Of a DNA stretch of 64,000 nt, positions 16,937 through 33,650 are shown piece after piece. How positions within the stretch are numbered: the stretch's first letter is position 1; each line of letters opens with the position of its first letter. This DNA is from Streptomyces fradiae (GTDB taxonomy: Bacteria; Actinomycetota; Actinomycetes; Streptomycetales; Streptomycetaceae): positions 7,192,001 through 7,256,000 of the forward strand of contig NZ_CP065958.1 in the NCBI RefSeq assembly GCF_041270065.1, read 5' to 3'. The notes under the pieces were generated by a model that saw nothing but the letters and a program-made list of their open reading frames with translations, did no database searches and was not told the origin of the DNA. The position numbers and the translations under genes are program-made.

Positions 16937-17062
16937 CCCGGAAGGAACTTCTCAGCCACACCGGAGCACCCGCAGTCTCGATCACGTCACCGGCGGCGTC
17001 GTGACGTCACGGCGCCACGACCATCGGGAGAGGCTTTGAGCTCGTTCGAGACAGATCTGCGG

Positions 17063-18364
17063 ATGAAGGCCGAGAGCGTCACGATCCGACCCCTGCAGAC
17101 CTTCGACAAGCGGGTGAAGGTCCTCGGCTCCAAGAGCTACTCCAACCGCTACCTGGCGCTCGCCGCCCTGTCCGGTGAGTCCACCACGATCGAGGGCGCC
17201 CTGGTCTGCGACGACACGCAGTTCCTCGCGGGTGCGCTGCGCGCCTTCGGCCATGTCGACGTGGACATCGACGCCGCGGCCGAGCGGATCACGGTCACGC
17301 CCACCGGCCGGCCGATGACGGCCCCGGCCGAGGAGGTGTACGTCGGAGCGGCGGGCACCCCGATCCGGTTCCTGATCTCCATGGCCGGCCACGCCGAGGG
17401 GACGACCGTGCTCACCGGCACCAAGCGTATGCAGGAGCGCCCCATGGGCTCCCTCCTCGAAGCCCTCCCCGGCCTCGGCGTGACGGCCGAGGCCGTCCGC
17501 GGCAACGGCAGCCCGCCGATCAAGGTCACCGGCCCGAGCTTCCGCGGCGGCTCCACGCGGATCAGCGGCGCGGTCAGCTCCCAGTTCACCTCCAGCCTCC
17601 TGGTCAACGCCACGCGCGCCGAGCAGGACACCGAGGTCCACGTCATCGACGACCTGATCTCTAAGCCCTACGTCGAGATGACGATCGCGGCCCTCGCCGA
17701 GATGGGCGTCGTCGTCGAGCGCGACGGCTACACCCGCTTCAAGGTCGCCGCCGGCCAGAAGCTGCGCGGCGGCACGGTCAGCGTCGAGCCCGACGCCTCC
17801 GGCATGTCGTACTTCCTCGCCGCCGCCGCGGTGCTCGGCGGCACGGTCACCATCCCGGGCATCGGCAAGTCGTCCAAGCAGGGCGACGTCGGACTCGTCG
17901 AGGCCCTGGTCCGCATGGGCTGCACCGCCGAGGTAACCGACGACTCCATCACGCTGACCGGCGGGGAACTCCACGGCATCGACATCGACATGGAGACCAT
18001 GCCCGATGTGGTCCCGACCCTCGCGGTCGTCGCCGCCTTCGCCCAGGGCACCACGCACATCAGCAACATCGCCAGCCTCCGGATCAAGGAGTGCGACCGC
18101 ATCGCGGCCGTCACCACCGAGCTGCGCAAGATGGGCATCACCGTCGAGGAGTTCCCCGACGCCATGACCATCACCGGAGGAACCCCGCAGGGCACGGTCA
18201 TCGACACCTACGACGACCACCGCATCGCCATGTGCTTCGCCATCGCCGGCCTGCGCACCGAGGGCGTCGTCATCAAGGACCCCGGCTGCGTCGCGAAGTC
18301 CTTCCCGACCTTCTGGAAGACGCTCGACAGCCTCCACGACGACGACATCGCGAGCACCCTGTGA
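17063..18364 (+). CDS. EPSP-synthase-like enolpyruvyl transferase, probable arsenoenolpyruvate synthase
   Basis: The 433-residue protein is a full-length AroA homologue. It keeps LGSKSYSNR (residues 21-29), a GAAGT-type loop near 95, RMQERP near 123, KECDR near 340 and DDHRIAM near 385, so phosphoenolpyruvate binding and catalysis look intact. In Streptomyces organoarsenic clusters an AroA paralogue is proposed to join arsenic to PEP. That assignment is from recalled literature; the sequence alone shows only the family. The support here is context: it overlaps a mutase paralogue by 4 nt amid ars genes, with no shikimate genes. I chose ATG 17063, which gives a natural EPSPS N-terminus. A TTG at 17036 beside GGGAGAGG is an alternative. 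Confidence 0.85.
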
Positions 18365-19881
18365 GCGCCGGAACCCCGGGCATCCTGCTGGTCCTCGACG
18401 GTTGGGGACACGCGGCGGCCGGTGAGGCCAACGCCCTGACCGCGGCCGCCACGCCGTACCTCGACGGACTGCTCGCCACCTGCCCGACCGTCCTCGCCGA
18501 CGCCTCCGGCACCGCCGTCGGACTGCTCCCCGGGACGGTGGGCAACTCGGAGATCGGCCACATGGTCATCGGCGCCGGCCGCCCCATCCCGTACGACAGC
18601 GTGCTCGTCCAGGAGGAGATCTCCAGCGGACGCATGCGCTCGAACGAGGCCCTGACCGAGGTGCTGAAGGGCCTCGCCGCGAGCGGCGGCGCCCTGCACC
18701 TCATCGGGCTCTGCTCCGACGGCATGATCCATGCCAACGTGCAGCACCTGCAGGAACTGCTCCGTATCGCCGCGCAGTTCGCCGTGCCGCGGGTCCGCGT
18801 CCATGCCATCACGGATGGGCGGGACGTCGCCGACCACACGGCCGCCGCCTACTTGGGCCTCGTCGACACGTTCTTCGCCGAGGCGGGCATCGGAGAGGTG
18901 GCGACGGTCGTCGGACGCGGGTACGCACTCGACAAGAGCGGCAACCTCGAACTGACCGAAAAGGTCTCCCTCGCCATCGTCGACGGCAAGGGCGAAGCGA
19001 TCAGTGAGCCGCAGGAGGCCCTGGAGCTGACCCAGCGCGGAGACGAATGGGTGCCGCCCTGCGTCGTGACGAGCGCCGACGGCCGGCCGCTCGGGGCCGT
19101 CCAGGACGGCGACGCCATCCTGTTCACCAACTTCCGCAGCGACCGCATCCAGCAGCTCGCGGACGACCTCCACACCTGGCTCGCCGGCCGGCGGGTCACC
19201 TTCCTGAGCCTCGCCCAGTACGACACCAAGGCGTCCATCCCGGCCCTGGTGCACCGGTCGGACGCGGGCGGCGGCCTCGCCACCGTACTCGGTGCGCAGG
19301 GCGTGCGCTCCGTACGCATCGCCGAAGCCGAGAAGTTCGAGCACGTCACGTACTACCTCAATGGCCGCGACTCGAACGTCGTCCCCGTCGAGGAGCATGT
19401 CAGGATCACCGGTGACAGGGCTCCCGACTACACGGTGAGACCCGCGATGAACATCGACCGGGTCACCGAAGCCGTCATCTCCGCCGCCCGCCGCGACGAC
19501 GTTCCCCTGGTGGTCGCCAACCTGGCCAACATCGACGTCGTCGGCCACACCGGCCACTTCGACGCGACCCGGCAGGCAGCCGAGCACACCGACCGTGCCG
19601 TGGAGGCCATCTGCGGCGCGGCGCAGGCGACCGGCCGCTGGGTGTTGCTCGTCGGGGACCACGGCAACGCCGAGAAGATGCTCACCGACGCCACGGACGG
19701 CGACGGCTGGCCCTACGGCGGGCACACCACCAACCCGGTTCCCGCCGTGCTCGTTCCGGCTGCCGGGCAGAAGGCGGCAACGCCTGCCGGCCCGGCCACC
19801 CTCGCCGACATCGCGCCCAGCGTCCTCGCGCTGCTCGGGCTCGCCCCCGAGCCCCGCATGACCGGGCGGCCCTTGTGGTGA
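18361..19881 (+). CDS. Cofactor-independent phosphoglycerate-mutase-like enzyme, probable C-As forming mutase
   Basis: The 506-residue alkaline-phosphatase-superfamily protein keeps the two-metal site of iPGM: DGWG (D13), GNSEIGH with the nucleophilic serine (S63), [10 protein letters not shown] and [15 protein letters not shown] and the lysine of [10 protein letters not shown] are also kept. The substrate loop after GRGYALDK (residues about 186-200) reads SGNLELTE, where glycolytic iPGMs, as I recall, have an arginine-rich DRDxRW segment. That suggests a changed substrate, fitting the proposed rearrangement of arsenoenolpyruvate to arsonopyruvate. The GTG start overlaps the AroA-like stop (GTGA), so the two are made together. 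A glycolytic role is unlikely in this context. Confidence 0.83.
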
Positions 19882-19951
19882 GCGCCGGAACGCACCGGCA
19901 CCAGACCGACCACGCGTCCCCTTTCACCTCCGCAGGACTGGAGACATCCCG

Positions 19952-20644
19952 ATGACCTCGCGTCCCCGTCTCGCCCTTGTCGGCGACCGCAGTGACCGTG
20001 TTCCCGCCCACGCCCGGTTCGACGAGATCGTGCCCGCCTTCGGTGTCGACGTCGACTGGCTCCCCAGCAGCACCGTGACCGAGTCCATCGCCGACTACGA
20101 CGGGATCTGGGTGGTCCCCGGGTCGCCGTACGCGAGCCAGGCGAACGTGCTCCTCGCCATCCGTACCGCCCGCACCCTCGGCATCCCCTACCTCGGCACC
20201 TGCGGCGGCTTCCAGCACGCGCTCATCGAGTACGCGCGCAACGTCCTGGGGCTGCAGGACGCGGAGGATGTGCAGTACGACGCGGAGGCTTCCACCCCGC
20301 TCATCGTCCCGCTCTGCTGCTCGCTCGTCGGCGAGACGGCGCCGCTCTACTTCGCGCCGGGCAGCCGGCTCGCCTCCGCCTACCCGGGTCTGGAGGAGAC
20401 GGTGGAGACGTATCACTGCAAGTACGGCCTCAACCCGGACTACGAGGACAAGATCCTCGCCGGAGCGCTGCGGATCAGCGGCTGGGACGCGGAGAAGGCG
20501 CCGCGTGCGGTGGAACTCCCCGACCATCCCTTCTTCGTCGGCAGCCTGTTCCAGCCCGAGCTGTCGTCGACGGCGGCCCGACTCCACCCGCTCATCAGGG
20601 CGTTCCTGGACGCGGTCGGCGAGCGTGCGCGTCGCGACCATTGA
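19952..20644 (+). CDS. CTP synthase C-terminal-like class I glutamine amidotransferase protein
   Basis: The 230-residue protein resembles only the amidotransferase half of CTP synthase. The nucleophile elbow is GTCGGFQHA (C84), but the usual catalytic HPE motif reads FQPE (Q201), so glutaminase activity is doubtful. Vicinal cysteines occur at PLCCSL (C122-C123), where related proteins annotated as CTP synthase C-terminal region-related may carry a redox Cys or Sec. A CTP-synthase-like gene is a recurrent partner of the AroA-like and mutase genes in arsenic clusters, as far as I recall. It sits 70 nt after the mutase with GGAG before the ATG. Its function is unknown; binding of an arsenical by the thiols is a guess. 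Confidence 0.72.
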   Translation: MTSRPRLALVGDRSDRVPAHARFDEIVPAFGVDVDWLPSSTVTESIADYDGIWVVPGSPYASQANVLLAIRTARTLGIPYLGTCGGFQHALIEYARNVLGLQDAEDVQYDAEASTPLIVPLCCSLVGETAPLYFAPGSRLASAYPGLEETVETYHCKYGLNPDYEDKILAGALRISGWDAEKAPRAVELPDHPFFVGSLFQPELSSTAARLHPLIRAFLDAVGERARRDH

Positions 20645-20697
20645 CACGGCGATCTCTCTGATTCGATACTTGTTTAAGTAAAGGGAATTCGAATCAG
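20641..20697 (+). promoter_or_regulatory. Promoter and long ArsR-like dyad of the first cysteine-peptide operon
   Basis: TTGACA (20641-20646) and GATACT (20665-20670), 18 bp apart, make a strong promoter. CTGATTCGA (20658-20666) and TCGAATCAG (20689-20697) form a perfect 9-bp dyad that covers the -10 and start region. A nested TACTT/AAGTA repeat lies between the arms. The 13-mer TGATTCGATACTT (20659-20671) recurs identically at 27519-27531. Confidence 0.65.
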
Positions 20698-20719
20698 ATG
20701 AACGGGAAGGAAGTGGGTC

Positions 20720-20899
20720 ATGGCCACGAACTCGACCGAGGCGGCCGAGCAGGAGCCCGTCGGCGGCTTCGTCACGGACCCGACCGCCACGGCGGGCGCC
20801 TCGCAGGGCGGCTGCTGCGGCGAGCCGGCCGACGCCACCGGCTCGGTCGCCGGTGGTCAGGGCGGCGGCTGCTGTGGTGAGCCCGGCGGCGGCTGCTGA
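20720..20899 (+). CDS. 59-residue cysteine-rich peptide with CCGEP repeats
   Basis: ATG 20720 follows GGAAGGAAG and opens a 59-codon frame. The first 28 residues are acidic and cysteine-free (MATNSTEAAEQEP onward). The C-terminal half has two GGCCGEP-type units and ends GGGC, giving five cysteines, four of them in vicinal pairs, within glycine-rich sequence. It could be a ribosomal precursor peptide with leader and core, or a small metallothionein-like arsenite/copper carrier. It is the first gene after a strong ArsR-type promoter and is followed 14 nt later by the M28 peptidase gene. No family is recognised. Coding is supported by start, ribosome site, composition and position. Confidence 0.75.
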   Translation: MATNSTEAAEQEPVGGFVTDPTATAGASQGGCCGEPADATGSVAGGQGGGCCGEPGGGC

Positions 20900-20913
20900 G
20901 GAAGACGCCTCAG

Positions 20914-22140
20914 ATGAAGGACACAGCCCAGGGCCAGGAGCGCGTCGCGGTGCGCTCTGCGGCGGACGCGTTCGACGCGGACCGTGCCCTGACGACGCTC
21001 CGGGCCCTGTGCACCCCCGACATGCAGGGGCGTGCACCCGGCACGCCAGGGCACGACCTGGCCAGGCGGCTTCTTGTCGCGGAGCTGACGTCGTACGGCC
21101 TCACGCCCGTGCTCGACAGCTTCGCCATCCGCGAAGTCATGCGACTGGCGGGCCGGCCCACCCTCCGGGCGGAGGGCGGACGGCTCGGCCGCGAGCTCGT
21201 CCACCGTGCCGAGTTCGCCGAACACCCGCGCTCGGGGCCGATGCCCGGGCCCGTCACCGGAACGGTCTCCGAGGACGCGGGGCCGGGGGAGTGGGCAGCG
21301 CTGCCCACCGTCCCTCAGGGGAACGCCTTCGCGGAGCTCGCCGACACCCTGACGGCGCGCGGCGCGGTGGGCATCCTCACGGCGCAGAACGCGGACGCCT
21401 CCGGATTCCTCACCAAGCGGGTCCAGGGCCCCGCGCCGGTCGGGCTCCCGGTCGTGGCCGTACGGCCGGATCTGCTCGCCGACGCGGTCGGCAGCGTGGT
21501 CACCGCCCATGTCCCGCTGGTCCGCGTGCCCGCCACCGGCACGAACATCGTCGCCACCCTGCCGGGCAGCGACCCGGAGGCGAAGCCCATCCTCCTCACC
21601 GCGCACTACGACGGTGTCGGATCGGACCCCGAGCGGCACTTCCCGTGCGCGGGCGACAACGCCAGTGGAACCGCGGTGATGTGCGAGGTCGCCCGTGTGC
21701 TGACCTCGTCCGCGCCACTGCCCCGGCCGGTCGTCCTCGCCCTGGTCGACGCCGAGGAGATCGGCACGCTCGGCTCCGGGCACCACGCACGCACCTTGCG
21801 CGAGGCAGGCGTCGAACCCGACGCGCTCAACCTCGACATGGCCGGCAAGTTCAACGGGAAGATCGCGATCGAGCTCGGACCGGCCGACCCGGCCCCCCGG
21901 CACGTCATCGCCGCACTCGACAGCGCCGGCCGACGCCTCGGCATCCAGCTGTACGCGGGAATGGTGTCGTCCGACAACCGGCGTTACGCGTCCGCCGGCT
22001 TCCCCGCCGCGGGCATCGGCGTCGGGGCGGCGCACTACCACTCGCCGCTCGACAGCCCCGAGCGAATCGACCCCGACGCGCTCGGCAAGGCGGGGAGGCT
22101 CGTCCTGGAGACGATCCACCACCTCGCCACCCAGAACTAG
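20914..22140 (+). CDS. M28 family zinc aminopeptidase
   Basis: The 408-residue protein has the M28 co-catalytic zinc residues: HYD (TAHYDGVG near 231), GDNASG, the acidic pair DAEEIG near 274, NLDM near 306 and the late histidine in AHYHSP near 375. An inserted PA-like domain occupies about residues 95-205. No signal peptide is seen, so it is cytoplasmic, unlike many secreted M28 enzymes. It sits between the cysteine peptide and the ATP-grasp genes, so it may trim a leader, process a peptide product or reverse faulty ligation. The ATG at 20914 has GAGGAAG upstream, overlapping the peptide stop. Substrate is inferred from context only. Confidence 0.85.
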   Translation: MKDTAQGQERVAVRSAADAFDADRALTTLRALCTPDMQGRAPGTPGHDLARRLLVAELTSYGLTPVLDSFAIREVMRLAGRPTLRAEGGRLGRELVHRAEFAEHPRSGPMPGPVTGTVSEDAGPGEWAALPTVPQGNAFAELADTLTARGAVGILTAQNADASGFLTKRVQGPAPVGLPVVAVRPDLLADAVGSVVTAHVPLVRVPATGTNIVATLPGSDPEAKPILLTAHYDGVGSDPERHFPCAGDNASGTAVMCEVARVLTSSAPLPRPVVLALVDAEEIGTLGSGHHARTLREAGVEPDALNLDMAGKFNGKIAIELGPADPAPRHVIAALDSAGRRLGIQLYAGMVSSDNRRYASAGFPAAGIGVGAAHYHSPLDSPERIDPDALGKAGRLVLETIHHLATQN

Positions 22141-22191
22141 ATCTCTTTCACCATCCGTTTCACCGTCATCTTCCGATTCAGGAGTATCGCC

Positions 22192-22542
22192 ATGGCCGCG
22201 GCCCAGCAGTCCGTCTCCACCCAGCTCATCCAGCTCGCCCCCACGGTCGGCGAGCACCACGCCGCCTTTTCCAAGAGCTACCAGGAGTTCTTCGGCGCCG
22301 TCTTCGACCACGACGCCCTGGAGCCCAAGACCCGCGCCGCCGTCGCCCTCTGCGCCGCGCTCCTGCAGGACCGCGAGGAGACCGTGCGGTCCTTCCTCGC
22401 CGCCGCCAAGAAGCTCGGGCTGAAGAATGAGGAGATAGGCCAGATCGCCGGCATCGTCGAGGCGATGAAGCTCGACGCCCTGCAGCGCCCGGCCGTCCAG
22501 GCCGTCGCCGCCGCGGCCAAGAAGGCCAACACCTGCTGCTGA
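22192..22542 (+). CDS. CMD/AhpD-fold small protein ending in Cys-Cys
   Basis: The 116-residue helical protein matches the carboxymuconolactone decarboxylase fold (LEPKTRAAVALCAALL, then LKNEEIGQIAGIVEAMKL). The AhpD peroxidase CxxC-x3-H motif is missing: the corresponding stretch reads LQDREETVRSF. Its only cysteines are one near residue 49 and a terminal Cys-Cys (KANTCC-stop). The displaced thiol pair at a flexible tail could act as an arsenical or metal ligand. An ATG at 22192 follows AGGAG. It lies in the same operon as the peptidase and the ATP-grasp ligases. The fold assignment is moderately sure, the function unknown. Confidence 0.75.
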   Translation: MAAAQQSVSTQLIQLAPTVGEHHAAFSKSYQEFFGAVFDHDALEPKTRAAVALCAALLQDREETVRSFLAAAKKLGLKNEEIGQIAGIVEAMKLDALQRPAVQAVAAAAKKANTCC

Positions 22543-22602
22543 ACCGGTCATTGCTCGTTGCCGGGTTCTCATCCGATACCTCACTTCGAAGGACCGCAGC
22601 AC

Positions 22603-23877
22603 GTGACTGATCCAACCAACAGCGGCGCCGGCTCCGTCGTCGTGCTCGGAGGCCGCAGCGAACGCGAATTCGCCGTCGTGCGGGATCTCGGGTACCGCGT
22701 GGTGCTCGTGGACGAGCAGGTGCCCTGGCACTGCATGCCCTGGGTCGACACCCACCTGGACGTCGTCCTCGACGACTGGGACGCGGTGGCCGACGCGATA
22801 CGCGCCGAGCTCGGCGACGAGTCCCCTGTGGCCGTGCTCACCCACACGGAACCGCGACTGCCCCTGATGGCCCGCCTCGGCCGGCTCCTCGTCGACGCCC
22901 CTCGGGGCCTCGACGAGACCGCCGCGACGAACTGCCGTGACAAGTGGCGCACCCGGACCGTGCTGAGCGAGGCGGGTCTGCCCGTGCCCCGCTTCGCGCT
23001 CGCCGGCACCGTGGAGGAGGCGATCGCGGCGGCCGAGGACATCGGCTATCCCGCGGTCGTCAAACCCCGTGACGGCGCGGGCGCGTTCGGGGTGCGGTGC
23101 TGCCAGGACGAGCGCGAGCTGCGTGCGGCCGTCGGTGCCCTGTTCGCCGCTCCGGCCGGCTCCCTGACCGGAGCTCTGATCGAGGAGTACGTCGACGGGC
23201 CCGAGTACGCCGTCCAGACCCTCACCCAGGACTCGAAGACCAGCGTCCTGAGCGTCTTCCGGCAGCGCATGACTCCGCCGCCGGTCTTCGTCGAGCTGGG
23301 CTACGAGCACCCGAGCGGTCTGTCGGCGGACGAGCGCGACGAGCTGGACGGACTGATGCGGGACGTCCTCGCCGCCCTGGGCGTGCACGACTGGATCAGC
23401 CACACCCAGATCCGGCGCGGCCCGGACGGATTCCGCGTCATCGAGGTCAACGCGCGGCGCCCCGGCGGCCGGCTCGTCGAGATGACCACCGCCGTCAGCG
23501 GCGTCGACATGACGGAGGCCGTCACGCGGCAGGCCCTCGGGCTCCCGCAGCCCGAAGCGAAGACCACCGTGCCGTACGCGCGCTACGTGAGCATCGTCTT
23601 CGACACGGCGGGCACGCTCCTGTACGACGAAGTCGACGCGGAGACCGGCCCGTTCGCACCCATCGTCGAGGTCGAGGTCGAGCCCGGCGAGACCGTCCGG
23701 CCCAAGGAGCATCCGAACGGCGGTGTCTACGGCCGCATCGTGGTCTACGGCGAGACGCCCGAGGAGCTCGACCGGGCGGAGCAGGAGGTCCGCAAGGCCC
23801 TCAGCCTGCAGGTGGTGTTCGGAGACGGCCTCGGTCCGGCGGAGACCGACAGCCGCGAGTTCAAGTCGTGCTGCTGA
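22603..23877 (+). CDS. ATP-grasp ligase 1, C-terminal Cys-Cys
   Basis: The 424-residue protein has a Rossmann-like N-domain (VVVLGGRSEREF), the ATP-grasp loops VVKPRDGAGAFGV (about residues 155-167) and ALIEEYVDGPEYAVQ, the metal/carboxylate motif EVNARRPGG (about 284) and a C-terminal domain with YGRIVVYGETPEEL. ATP-grasp enzymes of this carboxylate-amine ligase type activate a carboxylate as acyl-phosphate and form an amide bond. It ends DSREFKSCC-stop, a tail not part of the fold. GTG 22603 is the likely start after GAAGGA. It is the first of three related ligases in the operon and probably acts in stepwise amide formation. Substrates are unknown. Confidence 0.87.
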   Translation: MTDPTNSGAGSVVVLGGRSEREFAVVRDLGYRVVLVDEQVPWHCMPWVDTHLDVVLDDWDAVADAIRAELGDESPVAVLTHTEPRLPLMARLGRLLVDAPRGLDETAATNCRDKWRTRTVLSEAGLPVPRFALAGTVEEAIAAAEDIGYPAVVKPRDGAGAFGVRCCQDERELRAAVGALFAAPAGSLTGALIEEYVDGPEYAVQTLTQDSKTSVLSVFRQRMTPPPVFVELGYEHPSGLSADERDELDGLMRDVLAALGVHDWISHTQIRRGPDGFRVIEVNARRPGGRLVEMTTAVSGVDMTEAVTRQALGLPQPEAKTTVPYARYVSIVFDTAGTLLYDEVDAETGPFAPIVEVEVEPGETVRPKEHPNGGVYGRIVVYGETPEELDRAEQEVRKALSLQVVFGDGLGPAETDSREFKSCC

Positions 23878-23887
23878 GGTGGCGCGG

Positions 23888-25015
23888 ATGACCCTCACCG
23901 AACCCGCCCCGAAGACCACGGGGTTGCACCGGATCGAGGTGCGGACCTCCATACAGGCGGTCGACGCCGAGGAGTGGAACCGCGTCGTCGCCCGGGCCGG
24001 CGGGACCGTCTTCCACACCTGGGAGTGGCTCGCCGCCTTCGAGGACGCCCCGCCGGGCCGCTTCGAGCCCCGCCATCTCCTTGCGTACCGCGGAAGCACC
24101 CTCGTGGGCGTGTGCCCGGCGTACGTCGTGCACGAGTGCCCCCGGCTCTCGTACCTGACGGACCTCGCCCAGCTCGACCTCGGCGGTCCCGTCCTCCTGG
24201 CCCACAGCCTCGCGGCGCTCGACGGCGGTCCGCTCGCCGTGCCCGGCCACGAGGACGCGCTCGTCTCTCTGCTCGGCGCGCTGGAAGCGACCGCGGGGGA
24301 CGAGGGCGTACGGACCTGGGGCGTGGCGAACGCCCCCGCCGGCGACCTCGGCGGGCTGCTGCTGCGGCACGGCTACGCCACCGCCCACATCACGACCTCG
24401 TACCGCTGCTCCACCGATGTGCCCTCCGTCGCGGACTACTGGGGCTTTGCCTCCGGGCGGCTGCGCCGCAAGCGAGAGAAGGAACGCCGGGTCTCGGGCC
24501 GCGAGTTCACCGTGGCGGAGGCGCCGGCGGACGCCGACACCCTCGTACGCCTCCTGCACTCCATCCTGGAGAACCGCGGCACGCCCACGGACGTGCTGCC
24601 CGGGACCTTCCTCCATGCCATCAAGGCCCGCCTCGCGCCGTACGAGCGCATGGTGACCGCCGTCGACGCCGACGGGCGGACCGTTGCGGTCTTCGCCGGC
24701 TGGCAGTTCGCCGGGAAGTGGTCGATGTGGCTGGCCGGACTCGATGCCGAGCGGCTCTCCCACTTCGTGCCGTACCGGGCCATGGCCGCCCTGCTCATCG
24801 AGGGTGCCATCGCCACCGAGGTCGGCTCCATCGACCTCGGCCGGTCCAACGGTGTGGAGAAGCGCAAGCTCGGTGCCCATCCCGTCCCGCTCTACCTCGC
24901 CCTCAACACCTCCGACCGCGCCGAACGAGCCGCCCTGCACGCGGCCTGCCGACGCCTCGAAGAACGGTGCCAGGGCGCCGACGAGCAACTCGACATCGTC
25001 AGGCGGTGCTGCTGA
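23888..25015 (+). CDS. FemAB/GNAT-like acyltransferase, C-terminal Cys-Cys
   Basis: The 375-residue protein has the double-GNAT layout of the FemAB/BioF2-like group. It has an N-terminal half with HTWEWLAAFEDAPP and a C-terminal half with DVLPGTFLHAIKARL, VAVFAGWQFAGKW and IDLGRSNGVEKRKLGAHPVPLYL, the last being the typical substrate-site ending. Relatives transfer aminoacyl or acyl groups to amines, some from aminoacyl-tRNA. It ends QLDIVRRCC-stop, again with a terminal vicinal cysteine pair. ATG 23888 lies 10 nt after the previous stop. The last base of its TGA is the first base of the next ATG. In context it may add an amino acid to a growing peptide. Confidence 0.82.
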   Translation: MTLTEPAPKTTGLHRIEVRTSIQAVDAEEWNRVVARAGGTVFHTWEWLAAFEDAPPGRFEPRHLLAYRGSTLVGVCPAYVVHECPRLSYLTDLAQLDLGGPVLLAHSLAALDGGPLAVPGHEDALVSLLGALEATAGDEGVRTWGVANAPAGDLGGLLLRHGYATAHITTSYRCSTDVPSVADYWGFASGRLRRKREKERRVSGREFTVAEAPADADTLVRLLHSILENRGTPTDVLPGTFLHAIKARLAPYERMVTAVDADGRTVAVFAGWQFAGKWSMWLAGLDAERLSHFVPYRAMAALLIEGAIATEVGSIDLGRSNGVEKRKLGAHPVPLYLALNTSDRAERAALHAACRRLEERCQGADEQLDIVRRCC

Positions 25016-26229
25016 TGAACACCGACCTCACCGCCGACACGCGACCGAGCGTGGCGTGCGTCTCGGGACGCCGCGTCGTCGACGTCCTCAGCCGGCTCGA
25101 CGTGCGGTCCGTCCTCCTCGACAACCCCACACCGCTCGACCTCGCCTGCCAGGTCGACGTCCCCCTGGACGTGGACCTGGACGACTGGGACGCCGCCGAG
25201 GCGGCGCTCCGCTGGCTCCACGCCGGCCGCCCGCTCGACGCGGTCTTCAGCGTCTATGACGCCCACCTGCCGCTGGCCAGCTATCTGGCCGCACGACTCG
25301 GCACCCGCGGCCTCGACCTCCAGGCCGCGCTCGCCTGCCACGACAAGATCCGCATGCGGATGGTGCTCACCAGCGGGGGAGTGCGGGTCCCCGACCACCT
25401 GCCGGCCGCCGACCCGGCCGATGCCGCGGCCGCCGCCCAGCGCCTCGGCATGCCCGCCGTGCCCGTGGTCGTGAAGAAGGCGACCGGGTCCGGTGGGCGG
25501 GGCAGCATGCTGTGCCGCAACCCCGAGGACGTGGCCCGCGCCGTCGAATTGTTCGGACCCGGCGCGCTCCTCGTGGAGCGCGCGGTCGAAGGACCTGAAT
25601 ACGCCGTGCAGAGCATTACCAGCGACGGCAGGACCGAGGTCGTCGGCATCCTCGCCCAGCACGTCGGCCCCGGTCCACGGCAGGCCGAGACCGGGTACGA
25701 CTTCCCGAGCGGTCTCGGCCCGGAGCGGGAGTCCGAGGTGGCGTCCTTCGTCACCCGGGCGCTGGCCGTCCTGGGCTTCGACCACGCCGTCTCCCATACA
25801 CAGGTACGCCTCACGGCGGACGGCCCCGTGCTCATCAACGTGGCCGCCCGGCCCCCGGGCGGGCAGCTGTGTGCCGCGACCGAACGCGTCAGCGGCATCG
25901 ACCTCACGCGTGCCGCCGCCGAGATCGCGCTCGGGATGCCGGTCACCCGGGGGACGCCCACCGCAACCCGGGTCCTGTACCGGTGCGTCACCTCCGAAAA
26001 CCCCGGCACGGCCTGGTACGACCTCGACGGCATCGACGCACCCGCCGTCACGCTCGACGTCGAGCCCGGCGACAGCGTCCGCAGTGTCGACGACCCGGAC
26101 GGCGGCAGCTACGGCCGCATCGTGGTCTACGGCGACGACCCCGCGGAGCTCGAGAGCCGGTACCGCGCCATCTTCGAATCGCTCCGACTCCACGTCGAGC
26201 CCGACCACCAGCAGGTGATGCTCCCTTGA
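25015..26229 (+). CDS. ATP-grasp ligase 2
   Basis: The 404-residue protein parallels ligase 1. It has an N-domain with DDWDAAEAAL, ATP loops VVVKKATGSGGRGSM (about residue 155) and LLVERAVEGPEYAVQS (about 187), the metal motif INVAARPPGG (about 275) and the C-terminal YGRIVVYGDDPAEL. The metal-site asparagine is kept, but the usual glutamate before it (E-x-N) reads I-N-V, so activity may differ. Unlike its neighbours it has no Cys-Cys tail and ends QQVMLP. Start ATG 25015 overlaps the GNAT stop by one base (TGATG). It is one of three tandem ligases that probably act in sequence; the substrate is unknown. Confidence 0.85.
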   Translation: MNTDLTADTRPSVACVSGRRVVDVLSRLDVRSVLLDNPTPLDLACQVDVPLDVDLDDWDAAEAALRWLHAGRPLDAVFSVYDAHLPLASYLAARLGTRGLDLQAALACHDKIRMRMVLTSGGVRVPDHLPAADPADAAAAAQRLGMPAVPVVVKKATGSGGRGSMLCRNPEDVARAVELFGPGALLVERAVEGPEYAVQSITSDGRTEVVGILAQHVGPGPRQAETGYDFPSGLGPERESEVASFVTRALAVLGFDHAVSHTQVRLTADGPVLINVAARPPGGQLCAATERVSGIDLTRAAAEIALGMPVTRGTPTATRVLYRCVTSENPGTAWYDLDGIDAPAVTLDVEPGDSVRSVDDPDGGSYGRIVVYGDDPAELESRYRAIFESLRLHVEPDHQQVMLP

Positions 26230-27473
26230 CCCCTCGCGTCCTCGTCCTCGGCGGCCAGCGCACCGTCCAGCAGCTGAAGGAACACACCGACTACGACGTC
26301 GTGTTCGCCGAGGAGAACATGACGATCGAGCAGCTGATGCTCGCCGACTACCCCCTCGAAGTCGACTTCGACGACTGGGACGACGTGATCGCCCTGGTCG
26401 CCGCGGCCCACGCCGACCAGCCCATCGACGCCGTCGTCACCGGAGTCGAGCGCCTCGTCCCGCTCGCCGGGCGGCTGCGCGCCGAGCTGGAGCTCGGCCA
26501 CGGCATCACGGAACAGTCCGCCCGCGACTGCATCGACAAGGCGGCGACCCACCGGCTCCTCGCGGAGGCGGGCGTCCCCGTGCCCCGTAACCGAGTGGTC
26601 GCCGGCACGTCAGAAGGAGCCGAGGCCGCCGAGGAGTTGGGCCTCCCCGTGGTCGTCAAACCGCGTGACGCCTCCAGCGCCGCCGGCCTCAAGTACTGCG
26701 CGAGCCGCGAGGAGGTGGAACAGGCGGTGGGAGACATCCTGAAGGGGGGCCGGGACACGGCGCTCATCGAGGAGTACGTGACCGGGCCGGAGATCGGCGT
26801 CTTCGCCTCCCGGGTCGGCGGCCGGACCCAGGTCGTGTGGGTCGTCGAGGGCGAGGTCGGACCTCCTCCGACCTTCGTCAAGGTCGGAGGGTTCTTCCCG
26901 AGCCGCCTCGACGAGGGACAGCTCGCCGAACTGGAGGACCTCGCGGACCGGGTCCTGGCGGCCGTCGGTCTCGACGACTGGGTCGCGGCCCTCCAGTTCA
27001 CCCTCACCTCGGACGGCTGGCGCGCCGGCGAGGTCAACCCCCGCGTGCCCGGCGGCCAGGCGGTCGAGATGATCCGGTCGACCACCGGGTACGAACCGAG
27101 CCTGATCGCCACCGAGGCCGCCCTGGGGCGGCACGCCCGACCCGGTGCTCCCAAGGCGCCGTTCGGGCTCTACCGCAGCATCGTCTTCGACGGGAGCGGG
27201 CGCATCGACTACGACGCGCAGGCCGCCGGATCGCTGAGCGGCCTCGAATCCCCGGTTCCCCCGTTCGTCGAGTTCGACGTCAAGCCCGGCGACGCCGTGC
27301 TGCCCGTCGAGCACCCCAAGGGCGGCGCGTTCGGCCGCATCGTGCTCGCCGGCGAGAGCCTGGAGCAGCTGGAGCGGGACTACGCCAAGGTCCGGGAGCA
27401 GCTCGCCGTCCGGCTGGTCGACGACGCGGCCTCGGAGGCCGCGGTGGACCGCGCGCACACCAGCTGCTGCTGA
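26226..27473 (+). CDS. ATP-grasp ligase 3, C-terminal Cys-Cys
   Basis: The 415-residue protein starts at a TTG overlapping the previous stop (TTGA). No better start gives a natural N-terminus (TPRVLVLGGQRT). It has ATP-grasp loops VVVKPRDASSAAGLKYC (about residue 140) and ALIEEYVTGPEIGVF (about 178), the metal motif EVNPRVPGGQ (about 264) and a C-terminal FGRIVLAGESLEQL. It ends VDRAHTSCC-stop. The three ligases of this operon look like diverged paralogues and could each add one residue to a peptide, by analogy with other multi-ATP-grasp pathways. Transcription probably ends or weakens before the next promoter region at 27500. Confidence 0.85.
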   Translation: MTPRVLVLGGQRTVQQLKEHTDYDVVFAEENMTIEQLMLADYPLEVDFDDWDDVIALVAAAHADQPIDAVVTGVERLVPLAGRLRAELELGHGITEQSARDCIDKAATHRLLAEAGVPVPRNRVVAGTSEGAEAAEELGLPVVVKPRDASSAAGLKYCASREEVEQAVGDILKGGRDTALIEEYVTGPEIGVFASRVGGRTQVVWVVEGEVGPPPTFVKVGGFFPSRLDEGQLAELEDLADRVLAAVGLDDWVAALQFTLTSDGWRAGEVNPRVPGGQAVEMIRSTTGYEPSLIATEAALGRHARPGAPKAPFGLYRSIVFDGSGRIDYDAQAAGSLSGLESPVPPFVEFDVKPGDAVLPVEHPKGGAFGRIVLAGESLEQLERDYAKVREQLAVRLVDDAASEAAVDRAHTSCC

Positions 27474-27518
27474 CAACTTCTGCTTGATGAAGATCTGTTG
27501 ACGGTCAACCAGAACACG

Positions 27519-27548
27519 TGATTCGATACTTTTGAAATCATCGAATCA
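27519..27548 (+). promoter_or_regulatory. ArsR-like dyad before the second cysteine-peptide operon
   Basis: TGATTCGA (27519-27526) and TCGAATCA (27541-27548) form a perfect 8-bp dyad with a 14-bp spacer. The left side shares the 13-mer TGATTCGATACTT with the site at 20659. A TTGACG at 27498-27503 may be part of the promoter, but its spacing to GATACT is long (21 bp). Confidence 0.6.
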
Positions 27549-27568
27549 AGGACTTGGGAGGAGGAAGC

Positions 27569-27673
27569 ATGGCTGACGACATGATCGGCTCGGGCTGCTG
27601 CGAGACCAGCGGCGCCGAGGACGTGGCCGAGGACGGCCAGGAGTGCGGCTGCGCCTGCGCCTGCTGCGACTGA
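27569..27673 (+). CDS. 34-residue cysteine-rich peptide ending CGCACACCD
   Basis: ATG 27569 follows a very strong ribosome site (GGGAGGAGG). The 34-codon frame gives an acidic peptide with Cys-Cys at 10-11, an acidic middle (GAEDVAEDGQE) and a dense C-terminal cluster, C26, C28, C30 and C32-C33, ending in Asp. Seven of 34 residues are cysteine. It is either a precursor peptide with a C-terminal core or a minimal metal-binding peptide. It opens the operon that encodes an ABC exporter, and a strong hairpin follows its stop, an arrangement used to make precursor peptides in excess of downstream proteins. No homologue family is recognised. Confidence 0.72.
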   Translation: MADDMIGSGCCETSGAEDVAEDGQECGCACACCD

Positions 27674-27693
27674 TCCCGTCCCGGGACGCTACG

Positions 27694-27722
27694 GCGGACC
27701 GCACCCGGCGGGTGCGGTCCGC
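27694..27722 (+). terminator. Hairpin between the 34-residue peptide gene and the exporter genes
   Basis: GCGGACCGCACCC pairs perfectly with 27710-27722 around a GGC loop. It lacks a T tract and lies inside an apparent operon, so it is probably a partial terminator or an mRNA-stabilising 3' structure for the peptide message. Confidence 0.75.
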
Positions 27723-27762
27723 TGAACACCACCAACCACCACACATCAGAGGGGGCTCGACG

Positions 27763-29454
27763 TTGAACGACTCGCTTCGCGCGCTGCGCTTCATCTATGG
27801 CTACCCGCTGCGCTACCGCCGCGAGATCATCACCGCCACGGTGATCATGTTCATCGGCCTCCTGGGCAACATCGCCGTGCCGCTCCTCACCCGCTACGCC
27901 ATCGACATCGGCGTTCTCGGCGGGAAGTCGGGCAGCCTGCTGGTGACCTCGGTCGGTGTCCTCGCCGCCGGCATAGCCACCACGGCCCTGCTGCACTACG
28001 GCAAGCGCATGCGGTTCAACGTGGCCAGCAAGGCCGTCAACGACCTGCGTGAGGACATGGTGCGCAAGATGATGCACCTGGGTCCCGCGGACGTGGCCGA
28101 GGCGTCCGGCGGCCGTGCGCTCACCAGGCTCATCTCCGACGCGGTCTCGGTCCGCGGCCTCACCAACGGCGGCCTGCTCGAACTGGCCAACCAGCTGCTC
28201 GTCATGCTCGCCATGCTGGTCACGGCGCTGATCATCGACCCGCGCACGACCCTGCTGGCCTGCATCCCGATGGTCTTCGTCGTCATCGGCAACTTCACCG
28301 TGCAGCTCCGCCTGCAGCGGGCCTTCATCGAGCTCAAGAGCCAGTTCACCAAGCTCCTCGCCGGCGTCGGCGAGTCGCTCGCCAACATCAACGTCGTCAA
28401 GTCGTACGGCCGCGAGGCGGACGCCTCCGACCGCCTGAACAAGGTCAACGAGGCCCACACGACCCGCGACGGCCAGATGAAGCGCACGTACAGCCGCTGG
28501 GAAGCCGTCCTGAACGTCATCGGAGGCCTGCCCACCCCGATCGCCCTGTGGGCCGGCGGCAACGCCGTCCTGGACGGCACCAGCACCGTCGGAGACCTCG
28601 TCGCCGTCGTCGCCCTGGTCATGATGTTCCAGATGAGCGTCCACATGCTCGCCATGCACGTGAACGGAGCCTTCCGCAGCGTCGTCACCGCACAGCGCCT
28701 GCTCCGCGTCATGGACGCCCGCTCCGTCCTCGCCACCGGAGAGGGCAGCACCGACGTCCCCGCCGTGGGCGGGATCCACGCCTCCGGCATCGTCGTCGAC
28801 GTCGCCGGCCGGCGGATCCTCGACAGGGCCGAGTTCCGGGTCGAACCCGGCGAGGCCGTCCTGCTCACCGGCCCCACCGGCAGCGGCAAGTCCACCCTGC
28901 TGCACGTGCTGGCCCGACTGCGCGACCCCGAGGCCGGCAGCGTCACCTACGACGGCGTCGACGCCCGTACGTACGCCTCCGAGGCGCTGCGCCGCCGGAT
29001 CGTCTGCCTGCCCCAGCGCCAGTGGATCTTCGAGGGCACCCTTGAGGAGAACGTCCGCTTCGCCCGCCCCGAGGCCACCCGCCAGGAGACGGCCGACGCC
29101 GTCGAGGCCGCCGGACTCTCCCACATCCCGCTGGACCGGCGCTTCGGCGCCAGCACCCTGGACCTGTCCGCAGGCGAGCGCCAGCGCATCGGCCTGGCCC
29201 GCGTCCTGCTCGTGGACCCCGACATCCTGCTGCTCGACAACCCCACGGCGAACCTGGACGCCCAGACCGAGGCCGCGCTCCTGGAGACGGTCCTCCGGGT
29301 CCGCCGGGGCCGCACCCTGGTCATCGCCTCCCAGCAGCCCGCCGTCGCCGGCTACGTCGACCGCACCGTCAGCCTCGCCTCCTCAGAGCCCTCCGCGGGC
29401 GCCACGGCCACCCTCGCGGGCGCGACCAGCGCGGACGGAGGAAAGGAATCATGA
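27763..29454 (+). CDS. ABC exporter half-transporter, degenerate ATPase site
   Basis: The 563-residue type IV exporter subunit has six membrane segments (about residues 15-310) and a nucleotide-binding domain with Walker A GPTGSGKST near 369 and signature LSAGERQ near 467. The Walker B catalytic glutamate is asparagine (ILLLDNPTANLD) and the H-loop histidine is glutamine (IASQQP), so one of the two composite ATP sites of the heterodimer is probably non-hydrolytic. The TTG start at 27763 after AGAGGGGG gives the natural N-terminus. The stop overlaps the next exporter gene by 4 nt. The pair likely exports the cluster product or an arsenical-thiol conjugate. Confidence 0.88.
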   Translation: MNDSLRALRFIYGYPLRYRREIITATVIMFIGLLGNIAVPLLTRYAIDIGVLGGKSGSLLVTSVGVLAAGIATTALLHYGKRMRFNVASKAVNDLREDMVRKMMHLGPADVAEASGGRALTRLISDAVSVRGLTNGGLLELANQLLVMLAMLVTALIIDPRTTLLACIPMVFVVIGNFTVQLRLQRAFIELKSQFTKLLAGVGESLANINVVKSYGREADASDRLNKVNEAHTTRDGQMKRTYSRWEAVLNVIGGLPTPIALWAGGNAVLDGTSTVGDLVAVVALVMMFQMSVHMLAMHVNGAFRSVVTAQRLLRVMDARSVLATGEGSTDVPAVGGIHASGIVVDVAGRRILDRAEFRVEPGEAVLLTGPTGSGKSTLLHVLARLRDPEAGSVTYDGVDARTYASEALRRRIVCLPQRQWIFEGTLEENVRFARPEATRQETADAVEAAGLSHIPLDRRFGASTLDLSAGERQRIGLARVLLVDPDILLLDNPTANLDAQTEAALLETVLRVRRGRTLVIASQQPAVAGYVDRTVSLASSEPSAGATATLAGATSADGGKES

Positions 29455-31379
29455 CCACCACGTCGACCCAGGCGACCGCAGAACTCCCGGACGAGCGCGC
29501 GGCACGAAGGACGCTCCTCCTCGCCGTACGTCGCTTCCTTCCCTACCTGCGTCCCCACTGGGGCTGGCTGACGATCGCCACGTCCATGGCCGTCGTCAAC
29601 ACCATCGTCACGATCGCCGTGATGTACACGGTGATGGCCGGCATCGGCCACATCGTCCTCGGCGACATGGAGGCCGTCCGGTCCACGGCGCTCAACCTCG
29701 TCCTGCTGACCGTCCTCGACAACGTCATCCGCATCACCTACAACGCGGCGATGATCCGGGTGAACGAGCGCCTGACGATCACCATCCGCAACGACCTCGT
29801 GGCCCGCCTGCACAACGTCCAGCTCTCGCGGCACGTCGCCCAGGAGAGCGGCGCGTGGGTCACCCGTATCCTCTTCGAGGCCAATCGTTTCCGCGGCTTC
29901 CTGACCAAGACGCTGATGGAGTTCACCAACAGCGCCATCTGGTTCATCGCGTTCGCCGTCTTCCTGCTCGCCCTCAGCCCCCTGGTCGCCCTGCCCACAC
30001 TCTTCACGATCCCGCTGATGGTGTGGATCGCGGTGAAGTGGACGGCACGCCTGCGACCCGACACCCGTGCGCAGCGCGAGGGCTGGGACCAGATGGTCGG
30101 CTACCTCAACCAGCGCATCGACGGCCTCGCGGACATCCGCGCCTTCGGCCAGGAGGAGGCGGTCCTCGCCCAGCTCCGCGAGCGCTCGGAGGAGTACAGC
30201 GAGGTCCACAACCGGCTCTCCCGCAAGCGGCTCTGGCTCACCTCGCACCTCGGCTTCAGCGTCTTCCTGGCCCTCGCCCTGCTGATCTTCTTCGGCGGCC
30301 TCCAGATCATCAACGGGCACCAGCTGGGCTCCGGGTTCTTCTTCGACATGGCCTCCGGCATGATGCCGATGACCTGGATGCTCATGGGCACCGACACCAT
30401 GATGGCGTCCATGGGCATGGCCTCCGGCACCGCGCTGGCGGCCGGCACCCTCGCCGCCTTCGCGCTCTTCGTCAAGCGCATGCTCAACCCCGTCCGCGAC
30501 CTCGCCAACCAGATGGGCCAGGCCTCCGACATCGCCGCCTCCGCGCAGCGCATGCTCGACGTGCTCGACCTGGAGGAGGAGCAGAGCGGCTCCGGCACCC
30601 TGCCGCCGGTCGAGGGCGCGGTGGACATCGACGACGTCACCTTCGCGTACGGCGACGGGCCCGACGTCCTCCACGGCATCAACCTGCACGCCGAGCCCGG
30701 CCAGCACATCGGCATCGTCGGCACCAGCGGTGCCGGCAAGAGCACCCTGATGCAGCTGCTCGTCCGGCTGTACACGCCGACCCACGGCACCGTACGCATC
30801 GACGGCCACGACCTCGCCGACATCAGCAGCGCGTCCGTGCGCTCCCAGGTGCTCCTGGTCACCCAGGAGGCCCAGCTCTTCGACGGCACCGTCACCGAGA
30901 ACATCCTCTTCGGCCGGCCCGATGCCACCGAGGAGCAGGTCGTCGAGGCGGCCAGGGCCGTCGGCGCCCACGAGGTGATCTCCGGCCTGAAGGACGGCTA
31001 CAAGACCCGGGTCGGCGAACGGGGTTCGCGCCTCTCCGTCGGCGAGCGCCAGATCATCGCCCTCGCCCGGGCCATGCTCGTCGACCCTCGCGTCATCGTC
31101 CTCGACGAGGCCATCTCCAGCGTCGACCCGGATCGCCAGCGACTGGTCTTCGCCGCCATCCGCCGCCTCCTCGAAGGCCGGACGGCGATCGTCGTCGCCC
31201 ACTGGCTGACCCTCATCGAGGACCTCGACCAGGTCTTCGTCCTGGAGGACGGCCGCATCGTCGAGTCCGGCCGCCCCGTCGAACTGCTCACCGCGGGCGG
31301 ACGGCTCACCGAACTCTGCCAGGCCCACGAGGGCCGCACCCGCAAGAACACCACCGGAAAGGACAACGCCCATGTCTGA
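29451..31379 (+). CDS. ABC exporter half-transporter, intact ATPase site
   Basis: The 642-residue partner subunit has six membrane segments (about residues 35-345). Its nucleotide-binding domain has Walker A GTSGAGKST near 424, signature LSVGERQ, Walker B VIVLDEAISSVD with the glutamate intact, and the H-loop histidine in VVAHWL. It therefore supplies the catalytic residues missing in the first subunit. Met-rich stretches in the membrane part (DMASGMMPMTWMLMGTDTMM) are unusual and might contact soft metals. The ATG at 29451 overlaps the preceding TGA, and the stop overlaps the following cysteine-repeat gene by 8 nt, so all three are coupled. Confidence 0.88.
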   Translation: MTTTSTQATAELPDERAARRTLLLAVRRFLPYLRPHWGWLTIATSMAVVNTIVTIAVMYTVMAGIGHIVLGDMEAVRSTALNLVLLTVLDNVIRITYNAAMIRVNERLTITIRNDLVARLHNVQLSRHVAQESGAWVTRILFEANRFRGFLTKTLMEFTNSAIWFIAFAVFLLALSPLVALPTLFTIPLMVWIAVKWTARLRPDTRAQREGWDQMVGYLNQRIDGLADIRAFGQEEAVLAQLRERSEEYSEVHNRLSRKRLWLTSHLGFSVFLALALLIFFGGLQIINGHQLGSGFFFDMASGMMPMTWMLMGTDTMMASMGMASGTALAAGTLAAFALFVKRMLNPVRDLANQMGQASDIAASAQRMLDVLDLEEEQSGSGTLPPVEGAVDIDDVTFAYGDGPDVLHGINLHAEPGQHIGIVGTSGAGKSTLMQLLVRLYTPTHGTVRIDGHDLADISSASVRSQVLLVTQEAQLFDGTVTENILFGRPDATEEQVVEAARAVGAHEVISGLKDGYKTRVGERGSRLSVGERQIIALARAMLVDPRVIVLDEAISSVDPDRQRLVFAAIRRLLEGRTAIVVAHWLTLIEDLDQVFVLEDGRIVESGRPVELLTAGGRLTELCQAHEGRTRKNTTGKDNAHV

Positions 31380-31689
31380 CACCAACCTCGGAAACATGTT
31401 CTGGGACGCCGCCCAGGGGAACGCGGCCGCGACCGTCGAGGCGCCGAAGGCGTCGTCGTGCTGCGGCCCCAAGCCGGCCGCCGACGCCGCCAAGCCCGCC
31501 GAGGCGGAGAAGACCGAGCAGGCCGCCGCGCCGAAGAAGTCGTCCTGCTGCGGCCCGAAGCCCGCCGCCGACGCCGCCGAGGCCCCCAAGAAGTCCTCGT
31601 GCTGCGGCCCCAAGCCCGCGGCCGAGACCGCCGAGACCGCGGCGTCCGCCGAGGCCGCGGCGCCGAAGAAGTCGTCCTGCTGCGGCTGA
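31372..31689 (+). CDS. 105-residue protein with four SSCCG repeats
   Basis: The protein begins with a non-repetitive segment (MSDTNLGNMFWDAAQG) and then has four units built on SSCCGPKP separated by Ala/Glu/Lys-rich spacers. The last is cut at CCG-stop. Eight cysteines form four vicinal pairs and there are no others. The repeats are about 20-30 residues apart and look expanded by duplication. Vicinal dithiols bind trivalent arsenic strongly, so it may be an arsenite or copper buffer, or a multi-core precursor peptide. It overlaps the exporter gene by 8 nt, implying stoichiometric production with it. I know of no named family for it. Confidence 0.85.
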   Translation: MSDTNLGNMFWDAAQGNAAATVEAPKASSCCGPKPAADAAKPAEAEKTEQAAAPKKSSCCGPKPAADAAEAPKKSSCCGPKPAAETAETAASAEAAAPKKSSCCG

Positions 31690-31723
31690 CCCGCACCCGC
31701 CCACCCTTCCCGAAGGAGCACAG

Positions 31724-32209
31724 ATGACCCGGCGCACGGCCACCACCCGGCCCGCCGTACGCGGCACGAAGGCAGTGCGCCTGGCCGCCGTGACGAGCGC
31801 GGCCCTGGCCGCGGTCCTCACCGGATGCAGCACCCCCGCGTCCTCGGCCGGCGGCGGCGCGGGCGGCACCGCTCTCGACGCCAGCTGTCGCGGTACGAAG
31901 ACCGAGGCGGGCCTGGAGATCACGCTCGCGGTCAGCCCCTGCCCCGCCAAGGGCGGTGGCGCCGCCGCCACGGCGGCCATCACCGTCAAGGACGCGGCGG
32001 GCAAGGCCGTGGAGGGCGCGAAGGTCGAGATCAACCCGGAGATGCCCAACATGAAGATGAAGGGCGGCAACCAGTCCGCCGAGGCCAAGGGCGACGGGTA
32101 CGAGGCCAAGCTCGTCCTGGGGATGCCCGGCGACTGGCTGGTCTCCGTGGTCGTCACGCCGGCGTCGGGCAAGGCCTCCACCGCCGCGTTCGACGTGAAG
32201 GCGGAGTAG
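31724..32209 (+). CDS. FixH/YtkA-like lipoprotein
   Basis: The 161-residue protein has a basic N-terminus, a hydrophobic segment and a lipobox (AVLTGC), so it is lipid-anchored outside the membrane. The mature part is a small beta domain with the sequence PEMPNMKMKGGN near residue 107 and FDVKAE at the end, resembling FixH and YtkA-like domains linked to copper delivery. Two further cysteines (ASCRGT, SPCPAK) may form a disulfide. ATG 31724 follows GAAGGAG. With CopZ-like and CopA-like genes downstream it points to copper handling within the arsenic cluster. Its exact partner is unknown. Confidence 0.75.
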   Translation: MTRRTATTRPAVRGTKAVRLAAVTSAALAAVLTGCSTPASSAGGGAGGTALDASCRGTKTEAGLEITLAVSPCPAKGGGAAATAAITVKDAAGKAVEGAKVEINPEMPNMKMKGGNQSAEAKGDGYEAKLVLGMPGDWLVSVVVTPASGKASTAAFDVKAE

Positions 32210-32214
32210 GCGCC

Positions 32215-33648: not shown

Positions 33649-33650
33649 CC

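Follow-up and report, generated by a model that had tools for sequence, protein, structure and literature searches.

A terminal Cys-Cys pair on three protein folds of a putative organoarsenical gene cluster in Streptomyces fradiae

Why should several enzymes of one operon, built on different folds, all end in two adjoining cysteines? The question is raised by one co-directional set of genes (positions 16886..37071, from an EPSP-synthase homologue to a GNAT protein) in a 64,000-nucleotide stretch of the chromosome of Streptomyces fradiae (NZ_CP065958.1, positions 7,192,001 to 7,256,000), called here the window. Four genes of the set, which like all its members lie on the forward strand, end in TGCTGCTGA (TGC TGC TGA, Cys-Cys-stop): those for a CMD/AhpD-fold protein of 116 residues (CMD; 22192..22542, C-terminal KKANTCC, CC codons 22534-22539), ATP-grasp 1 (22603..23877, DSREFKSCC, CC codons 23869-23874), a GNAT/FemAB-like protein (23888..25015, DIVRRCC, CC codons 25007-25012) and ATP-grasp 3 (26226..27473, RAHTSCC, CC codons 27465-27470). 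These ends match the tails quoted in the original prediction for this operon (KANTCC, REFKSCC, DIVRRCC and RAHTSCC). A further paralogue, ATP-grasp 2 (25015..26229), ends in VMLP and provides an internal control without the tail.

Chance does not account for these ends. Among 321 genes of the same genome, taken with a simple GC-frame caller from 20 evenly spaced 20-kb stretches, none ended in CC and none had CC in its last ten residues, and on this background a chance origin was rejected. Cysteine made up 0.81% of the residues in the sampled genes (p squared = 6.6e-5); the probability that at least four of 12 genes end in CC is about 1e-14, and 2e-6 even at an assumed CC rate of 0.8%. Genome-wide the DNA word TGYTGYTRA was in no clear excess (145 + 128 occurrences against 108 + 132 for the reversed control), and in 28 stretches around such sites (32 sites) two of the genes called had a CC end, one being just 49 residues long.

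A CMD profile search gave ten named actinobacterial loci (L011-L020: six Streptomyces, Sphaerimonospora, two Herbidospora and Kutzneria) and five Paenibacillus loci (L021-L025). Together with the window and a cluster in genome G225 (L061), the actinobacterial loci make twelve clusters from four genera, and in these the CC end was present in 48 of 48 copies of CMD, ATP-grasp 1, the GNAT and ATP-grasp 3, and in none of the 12 copies of ATP-grasp 2. The clusters are not all independent, as L012 is almost identical to the window; the copies from outside Streptomyces are about 50-70% identical. The gene order is common to the ten loci except for an M28 peptidase: L018 and L020 showed no gene like that of the window (20914..22140; PF04389, 109.5 bits) on the cluster strand, and in L019 it is cut short. 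The residues preceding CC vary among orthologues apart from a few adjoining the pair, namely one Arg in the GNAT, H-T-S in ATP-grasp 3 (T in most), DSRE-K-S in ATP-grasp 1 and AN in CMD. The idea of a functional tail, which absence of the ending from orthologous clusters was to refute, thus stands, and alignment gives the expected picture of a conserved pair behind a changing linker, bar these few residues. The codons change as well, with TGT in ATP-grasp 3 of L017 and a TAG stop in L016 and L019, and since both cysteine and stop codons vary, selection acts at the protein level.

Relatives beyond the clusters were compared in the same way. Of 69 database proteins closely homologous to ATP-grasp 1 (E<=2.5e-116), 67 end in CC, the two others (P0060, from Paenibacillus, and P0051) sharing one and the same ending, and none of the next 51 ATP-grasps listed (E>=6.5e-85), three of which are ATP-grasp 2 orthologues, has CC in its last 12 residues; these counts are from the best 120 of 126 matches, with 8000 candidates scored. 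The pair occurs in each of the 27 CMD homologues at E<=1e-5, in 23 as the very last residues and in four with an Arg after it, and it is invariant in the 28 aligned CMD rows, actinobacterial and Paenibacillus alike. In 101 Streptomyces genomes no CC tail was found on 25 more distant CMD relatives (E up to 0.01) or on three GNAT relatives (two of them read past a stop). The statement that these families do not normally end so is therefore supported. A divergent ATP-grasp 1 (P0085, of the REFKPCC group) searched against 394 genomes of the class matched only the window's own genome at E<=1e-60. ArsM-AhpD fusions (NF041537) gave matches at E<=1e-40 in 131 of 296 genomes of Actinomycetota, none of the 296 over the family cut-off, and the matches listed cover chiefly the ArsM part and tell nothing on tails.

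CMD belongs to the CMD/AhpD family (PF02627, 34.9 bits, cut-off 23), and the catalytic CxxC of AhpD is gone from it: where 1vke has CDDC, the aligned CMD profile reads 'reet', and in 11 orthologues C115 and C116 are the sole invariant cysteines. Its structural model is helical, with a mean predicted local distance difference test (pLDDT) score of 79.6 and a predicted template modelling score of 0.60, and the best 50 of 157 Foldseek matches are CMD/AhpD-type by title, all of them weak (best E 1.2e-3). The NCBIfam matches of CMD at E<=0.001 are only the AhpD parts of the ArsM_AhpD_UU and MduS selenoproteins, both far under cut-off. In the model residues 102-116 fall below a pLDDT of 50, as do residues 409-424 in the model of ATP-grasp 1 (mean pLDDT 90.8), and judging from the models both tails are probably flexible.

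The closest solved relative of ATP-grasp 1 (PF13535, 69.8 bits) is the L-amino acid ligase BL00235 (3vot), by profile (2.4e-63) as well as by fold, and BacD and RizA are also matched; by profile and model it is an enzyme of the L-amino acid ligase type and is predicted to form peptides. ATP-grasp 3 falls in Pfam ATP-grasp families, and the three ATP-grasps of the window are paralogues, 35-39% identical. The tailed proteins had been described as unrelated, which is correct for three folds (CMD, GNAT and ATP-grasp) but not for four proteins. Similarly, the proposed convergence holds across the three folds, but within the ATP-grasps, where ATP-grasp 2 groups with ATP-grasp 1 in a tree (support 0.76), one gain followed by loss in ATP-grasp 2 fits equally well as two gains. 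The tailed GNAT matches PF13480 (61.7 bits), with PF04339 below cut-off (21.1 bits). A second GNAT (36136..37071; PF13480, 27.9 bits) has no CC end and is found in all ten named genomes and in G225.

Cysteine pairs are also found in three small peptides of the gene set. Cys peptide 1 (20720..20899, 59 residues) has CCGEP units and ends in GGGC; a CCGEP-type relative occurs in 10 of the 12 clusters, and L018 and L020 have a different CC peptide upstream of CMD. Cys peptide 2 (27569..27673, 34 residues, MADDMIGSGCCETSGAEDVAEDGQECGCACACCD) is present, little changed, in all twelve clusters of the four genera and gave no match in a Pfam scan; it could be a tiny metallothionein or the precursor of a ribosomally synthesized and post-translationally modified peptide (RiPP). 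Cys peptide 3 (31372..31689, 105 residues), with four SSCCG units and the ending KKSSCCG, is likewise found in 12 of 12 clusters, the repeat number varying and the L020 copy ending in SSCCN. We also considered that the Cys peptides are RiPP precursors with the ATP-grasps as maturases, as in graspetides. This reading is not favoured, as ATP-grasp 1 matches free amino acid ligases best; it is a possibility above all for the 34-residue peptide.

The surroundings point to arsenic. The first two genes of the set encode neighbouring EPSP-synthase (16886..18364; PF00275, 393 bits, start uncertain) and iPGM (18361..19881; PF06415 and PF01676) homologues, the combination that marks bsnMN-type clusters, and a BsnM-like orthologue adjoins BsnN in 10 of the 10 named loci. 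In bisenarsan biosynthesis bsnMN have been proposed to convert arsenate to arsonopyruvate, and they are widespread with diverse surroundings (PMC12159101). By analogy, the window proteins would be BsnM and the arsonopyruvate-forming mutase BsnN. Genes of arsenic resistance and regulation lie on either side, comprising ACR3 (7178-8254; 431.1 bits, cut-off 282.8), ArsO (40645-41700; 564.2 bits, cut-off 425) and three ArsR/SmtB-type regulators above the NF033788 cut-off; an arsenate-reductase-like protein (8832-9305) is below cut-offs. In addition, a class I/II aminotransferase of aspartate type (32215..33390; PF00155, 243.5 bits; best NCBIfam match NF041091, 345 bits, under the cut-off of 550) is the proposed arsonopyruvate transaminase. 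It adjoins the cluster in nine of the ten named genomes and in G225, and is absent there in Sphaerimonospora. In phosphonoalamide biosynthesis the transaminase PnaA acts on phosphonopyruvate, and the ATP-grasp ligases PnaB and PnaC follow (PMC11867202). As the window has an arsenic counterpart of each of these types of step, an arsonoalanine peptide is by analogy the likely product, and that the cluster makes an organoarsenical of some kind is highly probable. A copper-type P1B ATPase (CopA, 33803..36139; TIGR01511, 520.9 bits, cut-off 397) and a CopZ-like HMA-domain protein (33421..33648; PF00403, 47.2 bits) stand beside the cluster in all twelve actinobacterial cases.

A second arsenic pathway came to light in the Paenibacillus loci. 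In all five, CMD is followed by an ATP-grasp, a protein of the major facilitator superfamily (MFS), ArsM and ArsL (three of the five were read gene by gene). In L021, ArsL (NF040542, 691.3 bits, cut-off 450), ArsM (NF040539, 489.6, cut-off 240) and VcpD (NF047871, 147.5, cut-off 90) exceed the curated cut-offs; homologues of the three occur in all five loci, with ArsL 77-96% and ArsM 73-95% identical to L021 in the other four. CMD ends in ECCR in 5 of 5 loci, with one extra residue after the pair, a TAA or TAG stop, and TGT TGC codons in three, and of the ATP-grasps, those of L021 and L025 end in SCCKPGA and the other three (L022-L024) lack a CC end. Neither CopA nor CopZ had a match in the DNA of these loci, and a tblastn search with ArsL and ArsM of L021 (E<=1e-3) found no match in the window, which is thus without the arsinothricin ArsL and ArsM. 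CMD-CC and an ATP-grasp stand beside bsnMN as well as beside ArsL/ArsM, so the pair occurs with two unrelated routes to the carbon-arsenic bond. A HesB/IscA-like protein of a Paenibacillus ars operon (L022, 8261-8542; below NCBIfam cut-offs) ends in SGGSSCC, and L024 has the like.

Other bsnMN loci carry related endings. BsnN matched at E<=1e-80 in 19 of 246 Streptomyces genomes, and 16 further loci, with 20 kb around each, were taken from the 17 genomes other than G225 and that of the window, the weakest match (G213) being omitted. Seven of the 16 (L045-L050 and L058) encode a protein of 489-650 residues ending in GGCCG or GSCCG, a FemAB/GNAT-domain protein in all four that were scanned (L045, L046, L048 and L058). 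The L045 protein (4509-6110) begins with an array of CCG units like that of Cys peptide 3, as though peptide and enzyme were fused. An ArsI/CadI-like protein ending in CC was found in four of the 16 loci, the L051 copy being confirmed by NF041414 (203.1 bits, cut-off 116), and a CmtR-like regulator ending in ECC in one (145.4 bits, cut-off 150); in the remaining four no called gene ends in CC or CCG.

We propose, at a probability of about one half, that this is an organoarsenical-peptide cluster in which the terminal Cys-Cys is a flexible dithiol arm on which a trivalent arsenical is caught in a cyclic adduct, R-As(S-Cys)2. BsnM and BsnN would produce arsonopyruvate from arsenate and phosphoenolpyruvate, the transaminase would turn it into arsonoalanine, the ATP-grasp ligases and the GNAT would append amino acids, and two ABC exporter halves (27763..29454 and 29451..31379, each with PF00005 and PF00664 and an orthologue in all ten named loci) would export the product. 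In the reducing cytoplasm the arsonate may partly be reduced to its trivalent, thiol-reactive form, and two adjoining thiols at a free end would suit R-As(OH)2, giving the ring adduct. CMD, with its catalytic CxxC lost and conserved cysteines at the tail only, could be an oligomeric holder of the arsenical; the tails of ligases 1 and 3 and of the GNAT would take it over by thiol exchange and keep it off other proteins and near the active sites, and the SSCCG-repeat peptide would serve as a buffer. That the tails bind trivalent arsenic in the cell seems to us reasonably probable, and that they carry intermediates between the enzymes is a more tentative suggestion. Speculatively, the system may even be an arsenic assembly line: CMD-CC would be an arsenical carrier protein, a counterpart of the acyl carrier protein, that binds intermediates of the arsonoalanine type in dithiol adducts and shuttles them between the tailed ligases and GNAT, with the CCG-repeat peptides as reservoir and the same pair of carrier and ligase serving bsnMN in actinobacteria and arsinothricin in Paenibacillus.

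Several points weigh against an arsenical-binding arm. BsnM and BsnN are known to act on arsenic in the pentavalent state, in which dithiols do not bind it, and the trivalent state is assumed. ATP-grasp 2 and the ATP-grasp of three of the five Paenibacillus loci (L022-L024) are untailed, so the tail is not essential to such ligases. Inorganic As(III) is usually three-coordinate, and as no third cysteine is fixed near the pair, the affinity for it may be modest. The low pLDDT of the tails may also stem from thin alignments. We know of no arsonoalanine peptides among natural products. Finally, the conservation of CopZ and CopA in all twelve actinobacterial clusters makes Cu(I) a live alternative ligand.

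Of the other explanations, docking survives best, and we regard it as unlikely. Here the CC pairs would cross-link or be bridged by arsenic, zinc or a disulfide, holding CMD, the ligases, the GNAT and the Cys peptides in one channelling complex. The identical tail on three folds of one operon speaks for it, as do the CCG units, present in Cys peptide 3 of every actinobacterial cluster and joined to the FemAB/GNAT-domain protein of L045. However, the residues before CC differ by family (KKANT, REFKS, RR and HTS), and no common surface was seen beyond the pair itself.

It is also possible, and in our view improbable, that the tails bind Cu(I) or zinc and work with CopZ, CopA and the Cys peptides next to them as a copper relay, in which case arsenic would be incidental. 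Vicinal thiols do bind Cu(I), and the adjoining CopA and CopZ homologues speak for this. In Paenibacillus, on the other hand, the tailed CMD (5 of 5 loci) and ATP-grasp (2 of 5) stand beside arsinothricin genes, and the lack of any match for CopA or CopZ in these five loci makes copper a less likely common ligand. We also know of no need for such ligases or GNATs in copper handling.

Equally improbable is a role of the tails not as carriers of intermediates but as arsenic or redox switches, tuning the enzymes or protecting them as a sink for stray As(III) or as on/off sensors. Vicinal pairs are thought to sense in E. coli ArsD (C112-C113 and C119-C120; PMC4562236), and the absence of ligase tails from some Paenibacillus loci speaks for this reading. 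Against it, ATP-grasp 2 of the same operon is untailed, and CMD, in which no cysteine but those of the pair is conserved, shows no evident activity that a switch could regulate. There is very little to commend a signal at the nucleotide level (coupled translation, or selenocysteine decoded from TGA) or chance drift of a GC-rich genome: the GNAT and ATP-grasp 2 genes overlap at TGCTGCTGATG and TGC TGC TGA is common to four genes, but the TAG and TAA stops and the codon variation in orthologues, together with the extra residue in the Paenibacillus CMD, refute the selenocysteine and nucleotide-signal readings, the coupling between ATP-grasp 2 and ATP-grasp 3 involves no CC end, and drift is at odds with the background genes.

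Other genes of the window touch the subject less directly. Between BsnN and Cys peptide 1 lies a member of the CTP-synthase C-terminal-region-related (seleno)protein family (19952..20644; NF004836, 266.9 bits, cut-off 260), a family that includes selenoprotein members; residues 122-123 of the protein are a cysteine pair, and C123 is kept throughout 11 orthologues. A YtkA-like lipoprotein (31724..32209; PF13115, 46.4 bits) precedes the transaminase. Upstream of the set, a molybdopterin oxidoreductase of 838 residues (12644-15160) passes no NCBIfam cut-off and is possibly an arsenic oxidoreductase; proteins of L132, L133, L135 and the bsnMN locus L052 share its C-terminal SGQQAYKCFACRV. An RNA element was considered and rejected, as the window scan gave no Rfam match at the gathering score and no tRNA.

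Compared with known systems, the window resembles the bisenarsan (bsn) and other actinobacterial bsnMN clusters in having homologues of EPSP synthase and phosphoglycerate mutase for the route from arsenate to arsonopyruvate (PMC12159101). It differs from bsn in having a transaminase, three ATP-grasps and two GNATs in place of a decarboxylase and a polyketide synthase, and CC-tailed proteins form its core. The phosphonoalamide (pna) pathway of Streptomyces concerns phosphorus, whereas that of the window would concern arsenic. Arsinothricin biosynthesis (arsQML) is, like the predicted window pathway, one of an arseno-amino acid, and its Paenibacillus loci have the CMD-CC protein; unlike the window cluster it follows a trivalent route by S-adenosylmethionine chemistry. 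The transporter of the Paenibacillus loci is of the MFS type, in contrast to ArsQ of Burkholderia, which is of the GntP type. The arsQML and orf1-4 genes, in the extracts of their description, include neither an ATP-grasp nor a CMD protein (PMC8552651). The occurrence of both in arsinothricin-type loci of Paenibacillus, outside these described genes, suggests arsinothricin peptides.

Single proteins related to arsenic or metals and ending in Cys-Cys are already known, and the claim of the original prediction that no tag of this kind had been described was too strong. The NCBIfam model of ArsL is named rSAM_RCCLKC, and ArsL of the Paenibacillus loci ends in RCCLKC. The four ArsI/CadI-like proteins of other bsnMN loci, of the VOC type, likewise end in CC, ArsI/CadI being a single enzyme of organoarsenical breakdown. 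SaoC, the 'Cys-Cys-COOH selenoprotein' of the SAO system, has a C-terminal Cys-Cys (CU in its selenocysteine form) and is tied to metal or metalloid handling (PMC13188914). It is a single protein of another operon, whereas in the window the tail is common to several enzymes of a biosynthetic pathway; its model (NF040734) is not among the NCBIfam matches of CMD (two) or the GNAT (none), and no direct comparison was made. ArsD and VcpD (NF047871) use vicinal cysteine pairs for As(III) chaperoning or sensing (PMC4562236), but as a dedicated chaperone or regulator and not as tails on biosynthetic enzymes. The open-licence literature searched gave no case of one tail common to three unrelated folds within a single biosynthetic operon.

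What sets the present case apart is thus a tag on several folds of one pathway, invariant over four genera and echoed in a second pathway of another phylum. If the reading as a dithiol arm is true, it would represent a new mode of tethering toxic intermediates and would predict a new class of arsenic-containing peptides. In addition, a ligase or GNAT ending in CC beside bsnMN or arsLM could serve as a genome-mining mark for organoarsenic antibiotics.

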